NCBI RefSeq assembly: GCF_004104055.1
Contig: NZ_QOVJ01000001.1
Location: 682,001-746,000, forward strand
Direction: 5' to 3'
DNA length: 64,000 nucleotides
From: Leeuwenhoekiella aestuarii
GTDB lineage: Bacteria; Bacteroidota; Bacteroidia; Flavobacteriales; Flavobacteriaceae
The position numbers and the translations under genes were made by a program. Shown here piece by piece: positions 3,349 to 38,556 of this stretch; within the stretch, counting starts at the first letter, position 1, and each line of letters opens with the position of its first letter. A model generated the notes under the pieces. That model did not search any database and was not told the DNA's origin. It saw only the letters and a list, made by a program, of their open reading frames with translations.

Positions 3349-4959
3349 TTAGTTAGCTATAACCAAGGTCATCCCCGGTTTTAGTTTAGTACCACTAATA
3401 TCGTTCCAAACTTTAAGATTTTCTGCACTTACACCTGGAAATTTACGGGCGATCTTCCATAAGCTATCACCACGCTGTACTACATATTTCTTTTCTCCAC
3501 TACTTGTTACAGATTTTGAACTCGCTTTAGAAGAGCTTGTAGCAACCGGTTGATTTGGGTATAAGCTTAATCGCTGCCCTATTCTTAAATTATTAGATCT
3601 AAGATTATTCCATCGTTTTATCTGGGAAACACCTACACCATAACGAGAAGCTATTTTTCCTAAATAATCACCGCTACGTACACGATAGGTAACGCTTGAT
3701 GGAACTTCTAAATACTGCGGAAGTGTTTTCTCATCACGCTCAAGTTCTTTTTTTGCGGTATTGTAAATGTTTTCTTCATTAGCTACAAAAGGTCCAATTG
3801 CAGTAATAGGCAAACGTAAATAATACTTCTTATCTTCAAGATAAGGAATCACATCTAACTTATAAGCCGGGTTTAAAAACTGAATTTCATCTAACGAAAC
3901 TCCGGTATACGCTGAAACTTGCTGCAAAGTAATAGTTTCCTTTACTCGGATGGTATCGGTCTCAAAATAATTTACATCAGGTTGAGCCGGGTGATATCCG
4001 TGCTCATCTGCATATTCAAATATGTACATCGTGGCTAAAAATGCCGGAATATAACCTGCTGTTTCACGTGGTAAATGATGTCTAATATTCCAATAATTGG
4101 TGCGTCCACCACTACGACGTATCGCTTTACTTACATTACCAGGGCCTGAATTGTAAGAGGCTAATGCTAAATCCCAATCATCAAAAATCTCATAAAGCTT
4201 AGATAAATATTGTGCTGCAGCTTCAGTAGAAAGAATAGGGTCCATACGCTCATCAACATAAGAGCTAACATCTAAACCGTATAATTTACCTGTATTGAAC
4301 ATAAATTGCCACATACCTGTAGCTCCAACTCGAGATTTTGCACGAGGTCTTAAAGCAGATTCTACAATAGCCAAATATTTTAATTCTAGTGGCATATTGT
4401 GCTTATCAAGCGTTTCTTCAAAACCCGGGAAATAGAATTGAGATAATCCCATCAAGCGCTCTAATGTGGGTTTATGGCGCTTTAAATAGCCTTTAATGAC
4501 GTTTTCAAGAGAAGGATTGTACTCTACATTAAAGGGAGTACGTGCATCAAGCTCTGCTAAGCGTTCTTTAAGCACTTTAGTAGTAAGTTCTGGATAATCT
4601 ACATCCTCATACTCCGTATCATCTACGAGAGCGGTGATAGAATCGTATAAGCTACCGTTTGTAAGCTCTTCCATCCAGAGTCTATCAATCTTTGCGGCGT
4701 ATTTTCGATCATTCAGGTTTTGAAGGGTACTATCCCACTCCACTTCTTTATATAAAAAAGGCTGCTTTTTCCGGGCAGTATTGCTTCTCGCAATTTCCTG
4801 TTCCCTCAAAAGCAGCTTCTCTTTTAATTCTATAGTATCAACAACAGGAAGTGTTCTAGACACTTCATATGTTTCAAGATTTGACGATTTTTTCTGAGCA
4901 TTTAAGCCCACTGCGGTCATGAACATAAGTGCACAACCTAGACGATAACGTTTTTTCAT
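3349..4959 (-). CDS. mltD: Membrane-bound lytic murein transglycosylase D with two LysM domains
   Basis: This 536-residue protein has a signal peptide (residues 1-21), a family-1E type SLT domain at about residues 160-330 with the catalytic Glu in AIVESALRPRAKS followed by GATGMWQFM, a LASYNSGPGNV motif and LPRETAGYIP, then two C-terminal LysM modules (about 425-470 and 490-535; each begins YRVRSGD or YVVQRGD). It cleaves the glycan MurNAc-GlcNAc bond to give 1,6-anhydro ends, with LysM holding it on peptidoglycan. It precedes the DUF4837 lipoprotein gene in the same unit. An imperfect parS-like 16-mer lies inside the gene at 4060-4075. Confidence 0.92.
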   Translation of the reverse strand: MKKRYRLGCALMFMTAVGLNAQKKSSNLETYEVSRTLPVVDTIELKEKLLLREQEIARSNTARKKQPFLYKEVEWDSTLQNLNDRKYAAKIDRLWMEELTNGSLYDSITALVDDTEYEDVDYPELTTKVLKERLAELDARTPFNVEYNPSLENVIKGYLKRHKPTLERLMGLSQFYFPGFEETLDKHNMPLELKYLAIVESALRPRAKSRVGATGMWQFMFNTGKLYGLDVSSYVDERMDPILSTEAAAQYLSKLYEIFDDWDLALASYNSGPGNVSKAIRRSGGRTNYWNIRHHLPRETAGYIPAFLATMYIFEYADEHGYHPAQPDVNYFETDTIRVKETITLQQVSAYTGVSLDEIQFLNPAYKLDVIPYLEDKKYYLRLPITAIGPFVANEENIYNTAKKELERDEKTLPQYLEVPSSVTYRVRSGDYLGKIASRYGVGVSQIKRWNNLRSNNLRIGQRLSLYPNQPVATSSSKASSKSVTSSGEKKYVVQRGDSLWKIARKFPGVSAENLKVWNDISGTKLKPGMTLVIAN

Positions 4960-8339: not shown

Positions 8340-9182
8340 TTATTCAACGAAATCGGTTCTTTCGAGCACATAAATTAGAGAAGAATACTCGCCAGAGCGG
8401 TTTGCCTTTACATTAGAACGTAACCCATTTAGAAATGCTGAAATAAATTTCAATTGAGATCCTTTATATTTTTCTGAAAGCAAACTCACGTAAAATGAAT
8501 CAAAGATTAAAGGTTTTTGATCTATCACTTCAAATCCATTTTTACTGAAAAGTGTTTTTATACTTTTTGCTGAAAAGTGATGCAAATGTCTAGGCACATC
8601 CCAAGCTGCCCAAAATTCTTTATAAGTTTTAGCATCATATGAATTAAAATTAGGGACTGCGATTATAAGTGTACCATTTTTATCAAGATGATCAGCTAAC
8701 CAATTTATTTGATGTTGAAGATTGGGTACATGTTCTAATACGTGCCACATGGTAATCACATCAAATTTCTGTTCCCCTACTCCACTTTCATCTTCTTTTA
8801 AAATGAGACCTTTTGTCGCAGCATGATTTCTTGCAATTGCGCTAGGTTCAATTCCGTCAACTTCCCAACCTTCATTTTTTGCAACTTTTAAAAAATCCCC
8901 GGTACCGGCACCAATATCCAAAAGCGATCCTATTGCTGAATAATTAGAAATTAGCCTCAGCTTTTTTCTCAACATATAGCTTTTTACTAACTGATACATT
9001 TTTTCAACAATCCCTTTTTGGGAATCGGTATGAGAAATATAGTTATCGCTTAAATAATATTTTTCAATATCCTGAGGAATTGGATCTGTACTATACATAT
9101 CTAATTCTTCATTATAAATAAGATCAAAGTTCTCTTTAGAAACAGAGTAGTCTTTAATATTGATTTTAGATCTATTACTCAA
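8340..9182 (-). CDS. Class I SAM-dependent methyltransferase
   Basis: This 280-residue protein has a UbiG/Methyltransf_23-like fold. Motif I is SLLDIGAGTGDFLKVA, followed by an acidic residue in VDGIEP, and the post-motif is DVITMWHVLEHVPN. The C-terminal part has VPRHLHHFS, typical of methyltransferases near polysaccharide or lipid pathways. The substrate cannot be read from sequence. It lies 56 bases downstream of mnmG on the same strand. It is not RsmG/GidB, the methyltransferase that often neighbours mnmG, because the motifs differ. One parS-like site sits in the gap between the two genes. Confidence 0.85.
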   Translation of the reverse strand: MSNRSKINIKDYSVSKENFDLIYNEELDMYSTDPIPQDIEKYYLSDNYISHTDSQKGIVEKMYQLVKSYMLRKKLRLISNYSAIGSLLDIGAGTGDFLKVAKNEGWEVDGIEPSAIARNHAATKGLILKEDESGVGEQKFDVITMWHVLEHVPNLQHQINWLADHLDKNGTLIIAVPNFNSYDAKTYKEFWAAWDVPRHLHHFSAKSIKTLFSKNGFEVIDQKPLIFDSFYVSLLSEKYKGSQLKFISAFLNGLRSNVKANRSGEYSSLIYVLERTDFVE

Positions 9183-9216
9183 CGAAGGTTTACTTTTTTC
9201 TGAATTCTAAATTGAT

Positions 9217-9232
9217 TGTTTCACGTGGAACT
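9217..9232. promoter_or_regulatory. parS-like ParB (Spo0J) binding site, mnmG downstream side
   Basis: The 16-mer TGTTTCACGTGGAACT matches the Bacillus-type parS consensus (TGTTnCACGTGAAACA, read on the minus strand) at 15 of 16 positions, with an intact CACGTG centre. It lies in the 56-base gap between mnmG and the methyltransferase gene, 1.9 kb from the second site. ParB loads here in chromosome segregation in many phyla. Confidence 0.75.
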
Positions 9233-9238
9233 ATAAAA

Positions 9239-11116
9239 TTACCTTCCCATATAAACTAACATTACCGAAATATCGCTCGGTGAAACTCCACTAACCCGTG
9301 AAGCTTGAGAAATAGTTGTAGGTTGAATTTTAGTTAATTTTTCCCTTGCTTCGTAAGACAATGATTTCAGCTTTGTGTAATCAAAATTATCAGGAATTTT
9401 TATATTCTCTAAACGTTGCAATTTATCTGCGTTTGCTTTTTCTTTTGCGATATAACCAGAATATTTAATTCTAATTTCTGCTTGTTCCAAAACTTCAGTA
9501 TCCAAATTATGTTCTGCAACATAATCTTGAACTTTATTAAAAGATAACATATCATCAAGATCAATCTGAGGCCGACTGAAAATTTTTACCATCTTATCAG
9601 ATTGTTTCATTGGGGTTGTACCTTTTTCTGCTAAAACAGGATTTGCTTCCTCTGGAGTTATACTAGTGTTATTAAAAAAGTCAACAAGATTTTGAGCTTC
9701 GCTTTCTTTTTTCTCTAATGATCGCATACGATCTTCACCTGCAAATCCTATAGCATAAGATAGAGGAGTTAATCTACTATCTGCATTATCTTGACGCAAA
9801 AGCGTTCTATATTCTGCCCGAGAAGTAAACATTCTATAGGGTTCTTTAGTCCCTTTAGTGATTAAATCATCAACTAAAACACCAATATAAGCTTCGTCTC
9901 TTTTTAAAATAAAAGGATCTTTTTCCTGAACTTTCAAGCTGGCATTTACACCCGCAACTAATCCTTGAGAAGCTGCTTCTTCATAACCAGTAGTTCCGTT
10001 AATTTGACCTGCAAAATATAACCCTGAAACCAATTTAGTTTCTAAAGTATGACGCAATTGTGTAGGTGGAAAATAATCATATTCTATTGCATAACCGGGT
10101 CTAAAAAACTTAACGTTTTCAAAACCTGCAACTTGACGCAATGCTTTAAATTGAACTTCTTCTGGTAAAGAAGTAGAGAAACCATTTACATAATATTCAA
10201 TAGTATTCCATCCTTCAGGTTCAACAAAAAGCTGATGACGATCTTTATCTGCAAACCGATTAATTTTATCTTCAATTGAAGGACAATATCTAGGTCCTGT
10301 ACTTTTTATTCTTCCGTTAAACATAGGTGAGCGATCAAAACCTTCACGAAGTAAGTCATGAACTTCAGGACTTGTATAACTCATTTGACAAGATCGCTGA
10401 TTGGCAAGTGGTTTAGTCACGTTACTAAAACTAAACTTCTGTGGATTGTCATCACCAGGTTGCTCAATCATTTTAGAAAAATCTAAACTTCTACCATCAA
10501 CTCGTGGTGGAGTACCCGTTTTCATTCTACCAGAATCAAAACCTAAATCAATAAGTTGTTCAGTAATTCCAGTTGAATTTCGTTCCCCTGCTCTACCACC
10601 TCCAAATTGCTTATCACCAATATGAATAAGTCCATTCAAAAAAGTACCGTTAGTTAGAATAACAGACTTGGCTTTAATTTCAATTCCTAAAGAAGTACGA
10701 ACACCAGTTACGTGATCTCCTTCAACTAAAAGACCACTTACCATCTCCTGATAAAAATCAAGATTAGGTGTATTTTCTAACATCAAACGCCACTCTTCTG
10801 CAAAGCGCATACGGTCACTTTGTACTCGAGGACTCCACATTGCGGGTCCTTTACTTTTATTAAGCATTTTAAATTGTATAGCCGTACGGTCTGAAACGAT
10901 ACCACTATAACCACCCATTGCATCGATCTCGCGTACAATTTGTCCCTTTGCGATACCTCCCATAGCAGGATTACAAGACATTTGTGCGATGTTTTGCAAA
11001 TTCATAGTAACTAATAAGGTGCTGCTTCCAGTGTTTGCTGCGGCAGCTGCGGCTTCACAACCAGCGTGCCCCCCTCCTACTACAATAACGTCATATGTCT
11101 GATCAAAAAAACTCAT
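9239..11116 (-). CDS. mnmG: tRNA uridine-5-carboxymethylaminomethyl modification enzyme MnmG (GidA)
   Basis: This 625-residue FAD enzyme forms cmnm5U34 together with MnmE, using methylene-tetrahydrofolate and glycine at the wobble base of certain tRNAs. An N-terminal dinucleotide motif VVGGGHAGCEAA, the SCNPAMGGIAKGQ signature, KTGTPPRVDGRS with GPRYCPSIEDK, and a C-terminal helical MnmE-binding domain are all visible. Length is normal. Its promoter (-7 at 11162) lies beyond a perfect parS-like site that abuts the ATG, and a second site follows the stop. ParB binding could therefore affect transcription of this gene. Confidence 0.97.
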   Translation of the reverse strand: MSFFDQTYDVIVVGGGHAGCEAAAAAANTGSSTLLVTMNLQNIAQMSCNPAMGGIAKGQIVREIDAMGGYSGIVSDRTAIQFKMLNKSKGPAMWSPRVQSDRMRFAEEWRLMLENTPNLDFYQEMVSGLLVEGDHVTGVRTSLGIEIKAKSVILTNGTFLNGLIHIGDKQFGGGRAGERNSTGITEQLIDLGFDSGRMKTGTPPRVDGRSLDFSKMIEQPGDDNPQKFSFSNVTKPLANQRSCQMSYTSPEVHDLLREGFDRSPMFNGRIKSTGPRYCPSIEDKINRFADKDRHQLFVEPEGWNTIEYYVNGFSTSLPEEVQFKALRQVAGFENVKFFRPGYAIEYDYFPPTQLRHTLETKLVSGLYFAGQINGTTGYEEAASQGLVAGVNASLKVQEKDPFILKRDEAYIGVLVDDLITKGTKEPYRMFTSRAEYRTLLRQDNADSRLTPLSYAIGFAGEDRMRSLEKKESEAQNLVDFFNNTSITPEEANPVLAEKGTTPMKQSDKMVKIFSRPQIDLDDMLSFNKVQDYVAEHNLDTEVLEQAEIRIKYSGYIAKEKANADKLQRLENIKIPDNFDYTKLKSLSYEAREKLTKIQPTTISQASRVSGVSPSDISVMLVYMGR

Positions 11117-11132
11117 TGTTCCACGTGAAACA
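11117..11132. promoter_or_regulatory. Perfect parS-type ParB binding site at the mnmG start
   Basis: TGTTCCACGTGAAACA is identical to the Bacillus subtilis Spo0J parS consensus. It occupies the 16 bases directly before the mnmG ATG, where a ribosome-binding region would be. Confidence 0.85.
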
Positions 11133-11161: not shown

Positions 11162-11169
11162 CAAAGATA
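11162..11169 (-). promoter_or_regulatory. -7 promoter element for mnmG
   Basis: The minus strand reads TATCTTTG, matching TAnnTTTG, 46 bases before the mnmG start. The perfect parS-like 16-mer lies between this element and the gene. Confidence 0.5.
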
Positions 11170-11195
11170 CTTAAAATAAAGGCGCTAGCAATAAA

Positions 11196-26368: not shown

Positions 26369-26391
26369 TCAATGCTTTGTATTAATTAGTA

Positions 26392-26399
26392 CAAAATTA
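26392..26399 (-). promoter_or_regulatory. -7 promoter element for rnr
   Basis: The minus strand reads TAATTTTG (TAnnTTTG), 24 bases before the rnr start. Confidence 0.45.
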
Positions 26400-26537
26400 G
26401 CTTTAAAAGCTGAAAAACTTAGCTGTATTACGTGAACTTTAAGTTAATCTTAGTCCTTAAAAATCAAATAAATACAGATTTAACGGTTACATGACCAATA
26501 TTTAATTTTAAAAAGCAGTCAATTGTTAAATAAATAC

Positions 26538-26545
26538 TAAATTTG
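26538..26545 (+). promoter_or_regulatory. -7 promoter element for the 34-residue membrane protein gene
   Basis: TAAATTTG matches TAnnTTTG and ends 28 bases before the small ATG at 26574. Confidence 0.4.
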
Positions 26546-26573
26546 TTCTATTCATTAATCAAACTTTTTCAAT

Positions 26574-26678
26574 ATGAAAACGTTTTTGTTGAAGCGCTAT
26601 ACGATAATTATACTCTTTCTAAGTATCTTTATTTTAGGATTATTAGGAGTTTTGTCGTACGTCAATTCAATTTTTTAA
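26574..26678 (+). CDS. 34-residue single-helix membrane protein
   Basis: ATG at 26574 opens a 34-codon frame: a basic start (MKTFLLKRYT), a hydrophobic helix of about 20 residues (IIILFLSIFILGLLGVLSYV) and a short polar end. Support for a real gene comes from a TAnnTTTG element just upstream and a terminator just downstream, with nothing else to transcribe in between. A longer overlapping frame in another phase has no such layout. I do not recognise a family. It lies beside the candidate origin. Confidence 0.55.
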   Translation: MKTFLLKRYTIIILFLSIFILGLLGVLSYVNSIF

Positions 26679-26701
26679 AAGATACATCAATTTTAAAAAT
26701 C

Positions 26702-26738
26702 AAAAAAAGGAACTCTCTAAAAAGGGTTCCTTTTTTTT
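26702..26738 (+). terminator. Terminator after the 34-residue membrane protein gene
   Basis: The stem GGAACTC/GGGTTCC (one T-G pair) with an 8-base loop is flanked by seven A and eight T, a complete intrinsic terminator. Confidence 0.75.
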
Positions 26739-26740
26739 GA

Positions 26741-27464
26741 GTTCACTCTAAACTTTCAAAAAATCAATTTCAAATTTTCAGTTGTTAACAGTATATATAA
26801 TTATCATTTTTCTTTTTTAAAATTTAAATTAAATCTGATGCTTATTATTGTTTGTTAATAGCGGTATAAGTTTACTTATTTAAAGTTTGGATTTTTAATT
26901 ATTGGTAGATATTAACGCCTTATACAGACGTTTTCAGATTAGATAAGTCTTGATTCTCAACGAATTTTAAAACGCTGTTAACAATTGTTGATAACAGTAA
27001 TCAATAGTAGTTTTTGAATAAAATTTTACTAACATTTATTAAAAATAAAGGTTTGAATTGCTCATAAACTGCCAACAAAATTTAGAAAGATTTTCTTGCA
27101 TGGTATTACCCATGATCTGCTTTGTAATTTTTTTGATAGAAAGCAATTTTCATTTTACTTTTTTGATGACAACTTATAAACATTTATGTTAACTAAGTGT
27201 TAACTCATTTTATTCGAGCTATTTAAGTTCAATAAATAGCTGTAAGCTCTTTAAAACTAGTGATCAGAATAAATACGGTTATTCACACAGTGTTTTACTC
27301 GATAATTGAGTTTTAAATATTACTAGGCTTTCTTCTATAAATAAACTAGTTCGCCTTAATTTCTTACAGTCTTACCTAAAACTGTCTTAACAGAGTTTAA
27401 AGCGTTGTTTTCTAAGGAATATTTTTAAAAGATGCAGATATTGCATCACCTCAAAAAGTAACTT
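26741..27464. other. AT-rich 724-bp non-coding region, candidate replication origin or regulatory region
   Basis: No credible gene is seen. The stretch is very AT-rich and holds four GTTAAC words (two of them 12 bases apart near 27187-27206), an imperfect palindrome at 26975-26997, two TTTTTTGAT copies, a relaxed DnaA box TTATTCACA (27279-27287) and a one-mismatch box TGTTGATAA (26986-26994). It lies between rnr and an acetyltransferase gene, 15-18 kb from two parS-type sites and 4 kb from rnpA. This is consistent with an oriC, but a long regulatory leader or an ncRNA is possible. Confidence 0.4.
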
Positions 27465-37698: not shown

Positions 37699-38556
37699 TT
37701 AAAGAACTTCTGCAATATTAAATTTTTCAGATAAGCGCACGCCTTTTTCAGTATGTTTTACCGTGATTATAGGATTATGTGCATCGTGCTGTAACCAGAG
37801 GTAATACTCTTGATCTGCTGCTTTATTCAGAAAGGATTCTTTTTCGCCTAAAGTCAACAAAGGTCTGGTATCAAAACCCATCACATATGGTAAAGGTAAA
37901 TGTCCTGCAGTAGGTAATAAATCTGCTGCAAAAACCAGAGTCTTATCATTGTAGGTTATGTGGGGAATCATTTGCTTATCAGTATGACCATCTACAAATA
38001 AAATACCAAAATCTAATTCTGATGTTTCGGTGAAGCCCTTTTCAGGCTTATCTACAAAACGAAGCTGACCGCTTGCTTCGATAGGTAAAATGTTTTCTTT
38101 TAAGAAGGAAGCTTTCTCACGGGCATTGGGTTTTGTAGCCCATTCCCAATGATCTTTATTACTCCAATAGAAAGCATTTTTAAAAACAGGAACTAATGTT
38201 TTACCATCTTCTGCCCATTTTATACAACCGCCGGAGTGGTCAAAATGCAAATGTGTTAGAAAAACATCGGTAATGTCATCTGGGTGAAACCCTTTTTCTT
38301 TCAGTGAATTTTCTAATGTAGCTCCACCCCAGGGATGATAATAACCAAAGAATTTTTTGCTTTGTTTATCACCCATTCCGGTATCTATTAAAATAAGTCT
38401 GTTGCTGTGTTCTATAAGCATACAACGTGCACCAATATCTATCATATTGTTGCTGTCTGCAGGATTTGTACGCGTCCACAACGTCTTAGGAACTACACCA
38501 AACATAGCACCGCCGTCTAATTTGAAGCTGCCGGCATCTATCTCGTGTATTGTCAT
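37699..38556 (-). CDS. MBL-fold metallo-hydrolase
   Basis: This 285-residue protein has the HxHxDH signature in THLHFDHSGG and further metal ligands in the later DGHTDKQMIPH and LQHDAHN stretches. There is no signal peptide, so it is cytoplasmic. The family spans quorum-quenching lactonases, glyoxalase II-like and other hydrolases; the LILIDTGMGDK opening suits the lactonase-like group, but the substrate cannot be assigned. It lies 84 bases upstream of the S8 unit without an obvious terminator, so partial co-transcription is possible. Confidence 0.85.
   Translation of the reverse strand: MTIHEIDAGSFKLDGGAMFGVVPKTLWTRTNPADSNNMIDIGARCMLIEHSNRLILIDTGMGDKQSKKFFGYYHPWGGATLENSLKEKGFHPDDITDVFLTHLHFDHSGGCIKWAEDGKTLVPVFKNAFYWSNKDHWEWATKPNAREKASFLKENILPIEASGQLRFVDKPEKGFTETSELDFGILFVDGHTDKQMIPHITYNDKTLVFAADLLPTAGHLPLPYVMGFDTRPLLTLGEKESFLNKAADQEYYLWLQHDAHNPIITVKHTEKGVRLSEKFNIAEVL

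Follow-up and report, generated by a model that had tools for sequence, protein, structure and literature searches.

The 16-bp palindromes at the two ends of mnmG in Leeuwenhoekiella aestuarii are most probably the chromosomal centromere (parS) of this bacterium, loaded with ParB, moved by ParA and left at the edges of mnmG after parAB had departed; we put the probability of this reading at roughly 0.88. As parS is a known element, what appears to be new is that most sampled families of the phylum have it bracketing mnmG, away from parAB. It is unusual for a centromere to sit on both ends of one gene while parAB and, mostly, dnaA are at other places, and this suggests a rule for a large phylum in which origin calls based on dnaA can go astray: mnmG would be the marker of the centromere and be close to the origin. 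The arrangement also makes testable the effect of ParB spreading on a conserved translation gene, and the question of why parS does not follow parAB. The bracket was not found in the open-access literature searched; the survey by Livny et al. (2007) may list such sites.

By analogy with characterised partition systems, the single chromosomal ParB would load on both 16-mers as a CTP-dependent clamp and spread over mnmG and its flanks, and ParA, encoded with ParB elsewhere, would separate the origin-proximal domain after replication. The history that we infer is of an ancestral origin cluster which joined mnmG, parAB and parS, and from which parAB and mostly dnaA would have left while parS remained at the mnmG edges.

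Two 16-mers at the ends of mnmG and the host ParB

The window (the whole stretch of 64,000 nucleotides that was analysed) carries mnmG, also called gidA, on the minus strand at 9239-11116, encoding 625 amino acids and matching NCBIfam TIGR00136 with 840 bits (cut-off 524.85). The leader 16-mer at 11117-11132 is TGTTCCACGTGAAACA, lies directly beside the start codon (11114-11116, minus strand) and has no mismatch to TGTTNCACGTGAAACA, while the trailer 16-mer at 9217-9232 lies 6 bp beyond the stop codon, its plus-strand letters being TGTTTCACGTGGAACT and its minus-strand letters AGTTCCACGTGAAACA. Against the 16-bp parS consensus TGTTNCACGTGNAACA the leader has no mismatch and the trailer has one. 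The initial annotation had placed ParB/parS-type 16-mers at both of these positions, bracketing mnmG, and the coordinates are confirmed; its description of the trailer as a 15/16 match is right for the minus strand compared with TGTTNCACGTGAAACA, but not for the strict palindrome TGTTTCACGTGAAACA, from which the trailer differs at two positions.

Matches of this quality are rare in the host. Three with at most two mismatches occur in the window, against 0.17 expected (three were reached in 0 of 100 shuffles), and the 464 kb around the sites holds three with at most one mismatch, compared to a mean of 0.10 and a maximum of 2 in simulations of the same length (first-order Markov, n = 100). The 30 contigs of the genome (4.43 Mb in all) hold one perfect site and two one-mismatch sites, and as one of the latter, TGTTTCTCGTGAAACA at C1:838765 on the contig of the window, has a broken CACGTG core, the mnmG pair are the only sites in the genome with an intact core and at most one mismatch. 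Two sites within 1.9 kb, near a local skew minimum, agree with the few copies usual for a chromosomal parS. Chance alone would give a genome of this size about one match with one mismatch or none (0.95, scaled from the 464-kb simulations), but not two of them 1.9 kb apart at the ends of a single gene and recurring over the phylum, so that uniqueness in the host genome and the comparisons with relatives below rule out chance, to which we give a negligible probability.

The third match in the window (4060-4075, two mismatches to TGTTNCACGTGNAACA) falls on the HLPRET codons of an mltD-like gene. The codons CCA CGT GAA ACA are used in 7 of 29 PRET motifs, the host copy counted, where about 0.55 would be expected from codon usage. 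A parS-like site lies on the mltD-like LPRET codons at L014, L015, L021, L022, L024, L028, L029, L033 and L034, and LPRET codon choice in those related genomes fits parS oftener than codon usage predicts. Because the PRET sequences are related and the host copy has two mismatches, 4060-4075 is possibly, and with some uncertainty, a degenerate parS. An Rfam scan gave two tRNAs as its only matches at gathering scores.

A single ParB match above the family cut-off was found in the host genome, at 497 kb on contig C2, and this protein of 301 amino acids adjoins a ParA of 271. It matches PDB chains 7bnk (4e-52), 1vz0 (1e-50) and 6sdk (7e-49), which we take to be from M. xanthus, T. thermophilus and B. 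subtilis respectively, and it has the sequence GERRFRA, presumably the CTP-pocket motif. In Caulobacter numbering, assigned by spacing from the conserved helix-turn-helix Q taken as 162 rather than by direct alignment to the Caulobacter chain, it has Q162, G170, K171, R173, N178, G201 and R204. Passages of PMC7383237 describe R173 and G201 as contacting parS, as absolutely conserved in extant ParB and as altered in Noc. The host protein departs from that of Caulobacter at 172 (N instead of S) and at 184 (K instead of A); the same passages give K at 184 as typical of Noc and the position as variable among ParB proteins (PMC7383237). Thus ParA and a ParB with the parS-recognition residues, as placed by spacing, are encoded in the same genome as the two 16-mers.

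Conservation beside mnmG, and exceptions to it

The comparison with relatives that the initial annotation had proposed found a site beside mnmG in 79 of 80 loci (77 had one upstream, 72 had one downstream and 70 had both), the sole locus without one being from a Capnocytophaga MAG (L074). These 80 loci are the best matches to the host MnmG out of at least 592 and so not a random sample, and a site was counted at no more than two mismatches with an intact core, or at no more than one mismatch. Sites with at most one mismatch were concentrated around mnmG, with 187 in 382 kb there compared to 9 in 1192 kb farther out, and five of those nine were the mltD codon site. Upstream sites lay within 20 bp of the ATG in 49 of 77 cases (0 to 120 bp was the full range from leader site to start codon) and downstream sites within 10 bp of the stop codon in 44 of 72.

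Perfect sites were present in 55 of 60 genomes of the host's family (0 of 60 with a reversed-pattern control) and in 96 of 148 genomes sampled across the class (control 2 of 148). Among the class matches listed, 75 perfect sites from 47 of the 96 matching genomes, 61 were inside mnmG or no more than 3 kb from it. A site with at most one mismatch lay within 1.5 kb of mnmG in 48 of 60 class regions (57 families and 3 second members), and such sites numbered 84 in the 228 kb of the family sample within 1 kb of mnmG versus 6 in the 758 kb farther away. Of 20 families from other classes, 18 had a site with at most one mismatch in the stretch reaching about 2.5 kb either side of mnmG. Several families had trailer sites only.

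The genes next to mnmG vary between families. Over 69 of the 77 other families (the host's family was left out and eight with short flanks were dropped), the upstream neighbours fell into 42 clusters, the largest of 21 and including the host YbeY, and the downstream neighbours into 33, the largest of 22; these counts are upper estimates of turnover, as the ORF calls were mechanical and the clustering used BLAST with a threshold of 1e-4. In 57 of the 69 families mnmG still has a site no more than 2 kb away with one mismatch or none, and so the sites are conserved, with exceptions, despite a changing gene context. This suggests that parS has probably been tied to mnmG from an early point in the history of the phylum, separated from parAB, though parS may instead have been gained repeatedly beside mnmG and not inherited. 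Together, the unique pair in the host genome, a ParB with parS-reading residues and the recurrence across the phylum uphold the ParB/parS-type identity that the initial annotation had given to the 16-mers.

CACGTG is a common core of dimer binding sites, and the pattern could in principle belong to a dimeric regulator other than ParB. Conservation extends from the core into both arms of the parS consensus, however, with positions 2-4 and 13-15 each retained in at least 192 of 194 sites (a set restricted to an intact core and at most three mismatches). Perfect sites are few per genome, from none to a few and twelve at most in the class, and a ParB was found in 146 of the 148 genomes of the class (and in 20 of 20 genomes of other classes), all of which makes another regulator very unlikely.

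We also considered that the palindromes could act in the mnmG transcript as RNA hairpins, controlling translation from the leader and termination or stability from the trailer, as the 16-mer is self-complementary and the sites hug the gene ends at the distances given above. For a hairpin, T..G at positions 5 and 12, which would form a U-G pair, is expected over a C..A mismatch, but on the sense strand T..G was found in 18 upstream sites versus 22 with C..A, and in 7 downstream sites versus 25; the distances to the gene ends also vary. The lack of a T..G preference argues against a hairpin and for a site read in duplex DNA, and as no stem-preserving variation was seen on the transcript strand, the hairpin was rejected as highly improbable.

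Two further features of the site letters were recorded. The 7 to 25 split among trailer sites amounts to an orientation bias (p = 0.002, uncorrected for kinship among the 80 loci, L013-L092). At the outermost dyad positions, 1 and 16, both letters were changed in 15 of 194 sites, 12 of the 15 being complementary; the odds ratio for joint change was 2.35 (p = 0.036, uncorrected for kinship), and this covariation is weak.

Some Flavobacterium mnmG leaders are expanded into arrays of parS (L031 at 8812-9938, from Flavobacterium sp. MC2016-06, and L036, L037 and L040). The L031 leader has 12 upstream matches with at most two mismatches, several about 117 bp apart and some with CACATG for CACGTG. 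In the leaders of L041 (Kordia) and L058 the sites are TGTTCCACATGGAACA, the CACGTG core being altered in repeated copies, which suggests either a shifted ParB preference or decay.

Exceptions to the bracket were found at each level of sampling. No perfect site was found in 52 of the 148 class genomes, and 12 of the 60 family-level regions lacked any site of one mismatch or fewer in the 1.5 kb next to mnmG; two of the 12 were on short contigs, and five (f11, f36, f39, f45 and f54) had a near site with two mismatches. Perfect sites were present but off mnmG in G026 (two sites, none within 8 kb), G035, G055 (on a short contig) and G052 (25.5 kb away, at C11:196332), and were on contigs other than that of mnmG in G089 (C1:545) and for nine of the twelve in G031. 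Seven perfect sites spaced by 98-99 bp lie in G031 at C24:13202-13810, on a contig without an mnmG match, and a search of this genome (family f31) with the ParB model gave no match. Outside the class, perfect sites were on contigs other than that of mnmG in G217 (C2:70233-70294) and in G299, where they (C42:67753-74328) share a contig with parB (C42:14064), 53-60 kb apart. G299 may represent a relocation of the centromere, and the sites off mnmG in G217, G052, G089, G026 and G035 are possibly relocations or assembly breaks. These exceptions suggest that the centromere can move and that, in one case, it may have come nearer to parB.

Position relative to the origin, dnaA and parAB

The cumulative GC skew reached its minimum at position 38544 of the window (C1:720544) in a scan of C1:482001-946000, that is 464 kb of a 1.38-Mb contig, and the minimum is therefore a local one; the mnmG site pair lies 27-29 kb from it. 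With the genome scan, this skew check bears out the origin-proximal position that had been proposed for the pair. Left of the minimum most genes are on the minus strand, and to its right most are on the plus strand as far as about 57 kb. The top-scoring loose cluster of DnaA-box-like sequences in the 464 kb, at 26986-27286, is 11 kb off the skew minimum and lies within a 1.1-kb gap (26369-27464) that separates ORFs of 120 amino acids or more, and which on this weak evidence is a candidate oriC. For the strict DnaA-box pattern the window showed no enrichment, with 5 matches against 3.3 expected, and a search of plasmids with the gap gave no match. The gap is AT-rich, with repeated GTTAAC words, and is flanked by a gene with an RNB domain (ribonuclease R type) and an ORF of 146 amino acids.

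In four of five complete relatives (G116, G131, G096 and G001) the sampled skew minimum was no more than one sampling step from mnmG, and in G145 it was not at mnmG; the sampling was coarse (in each genome the mnmG stretch and 10-20 others), and G001 was noisy. The dnaA gene is not at mnmG and parS in the host, being on another contig (C2:299.7 kb), and among seven genomes it was at least 309 kb from mnmG in six and 16 kb away in G036.

Nor does a parA-parB pair adjoin mnmG and parS in the host, whose parB is on C2. The distance from parB to mnmG was 300 kb to 2.2 Mb, or 8-47% of the chromosome, in all 15 single-contig genomes with both positions (G251, G286 and G293 were among those left out), and the closest parB seen in draft genomes was 55 kb from mnmG (G128). 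The mnmG stretches of 6.8-6.9 kb from the 20 families of other classes gave no parA or parB match.

The mnmG leader, and comparison with known systems

A predicted -7 promoter box of the Bacteroidota type, TATCTTTG, lies on the minus strand at 11162-11169 and precedes the leader parS by 29 nt; a TTG at 11189-11191 (minus strand) is 19 nt farther upstream. We take TATCTTTG to fit the Bacteroidota promoter consensus TAnnTTTG. The initial annotation had suggested that ParB loading and mnmG expression could interfere with each other, and by way of this predicted promoter such interference is at most plausible. ParB bound at the leader or spreading from it might then also regulate mnmG, by blocking RNA polymerase in the 5' UTR, and the output of mnmG would report the ParB occupancy of the origin; this would add to the parS reading and not replace it.

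The leader site often falls within a few tens of nucleotides downstream of the predicted transcript start, where a protein bound to it could stand in the way of the polymerase. Of 76 leader sites (from the 80 loci and the window), 24 have a strict TAnnTTTG no more than 60 bp upstream, compared to 4 of 75 trailer sites, and the motif is 17-36 bp ahead of parS in 18 of the 24. Spacing is tighter between motif and parS (sd 13) than between parS and ATG (sd 19), and the motif lies between the ATG-proximal parS and the ATG in only 1 of the 76 leaders. In the family set (44 loci chosen for an expected leader site, 40 of which had one in the 250 bp scanned), 11 of 40 leader sites had the motif no more than 60 bp upstream.

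Two thirds of the leaders lack the motif, however; 3 of the 24 motifs overlap letters of parS, and only 6 of the 24 have a TTG 17-23 nt farther upstream. The trailer sites used as control are inside coding sequence or close to it, the distance from site to start codon is loose, and some families have trailer sites only. The same geometry could arise simply from there being little intergenic room. For the gidA promoter region of P. aeruginosa, passages of PMC3909081 give, as unpublished, that no ParA/ParB regulation was detected in E. coli. On balance we allow regulation of mnmG by ParB a small but real chance. A stronger version, to which we give a slim chance, is that the centromere is tied to mnmG by function, ParB at the leader throttling mnmG from downstream of the promoter so that the decoding capacity supplied by MnmG tracks origin segregation, and the trailer site closing a ParB domain of gene length.

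Taken as a centromere, the mnmG pair can be set beside three bodies of earlier work. According to passages of PMC10197239, Hi-C of 12 gut bacteria, including Bacteroides caecimuris, found parS clustered at ori and dnaA not always there. The ori in that study was chosen from the skew and the parS cluster, and read coverage agreed (PMC10197239, in part); because the parS cluster was used in choosing ori, we count the study as support and not as independent proof. The two Bacteroidetes in it are described in those passages as having no recognised condensin. The host resembles those bacteria, among them Bacteroidetes, in having parS at the skew-defined ori and dnaA not necessarily there, but the passages seen of PMC10197239 make no mention of mnmG or of a bracket.

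The sites also resemble those of Bacillus Spo0J/parS and Caulobacter ParB/parS in being a 16-bp palindrome, present in few copies, origin-proximal and accompanied by a ParB with the same DNA-reading residues; unlike in those ParABS systems, the sites here hug both ends of mnmG, and parAB is elsewhere. An ancestral origin cluster of gidA-gidB-parA-parB and other genes is attributed to Ogasawara and Yoshikawa 1992, as cited in a passage of PMC2099444. The arrangement described here is like that cluster in having mnmG (gidA) near the origin with parS alongside, and unlike it in that parAB, and dnaA in six of seven genomes, are elsewhere, while mnmG and parS are still together.
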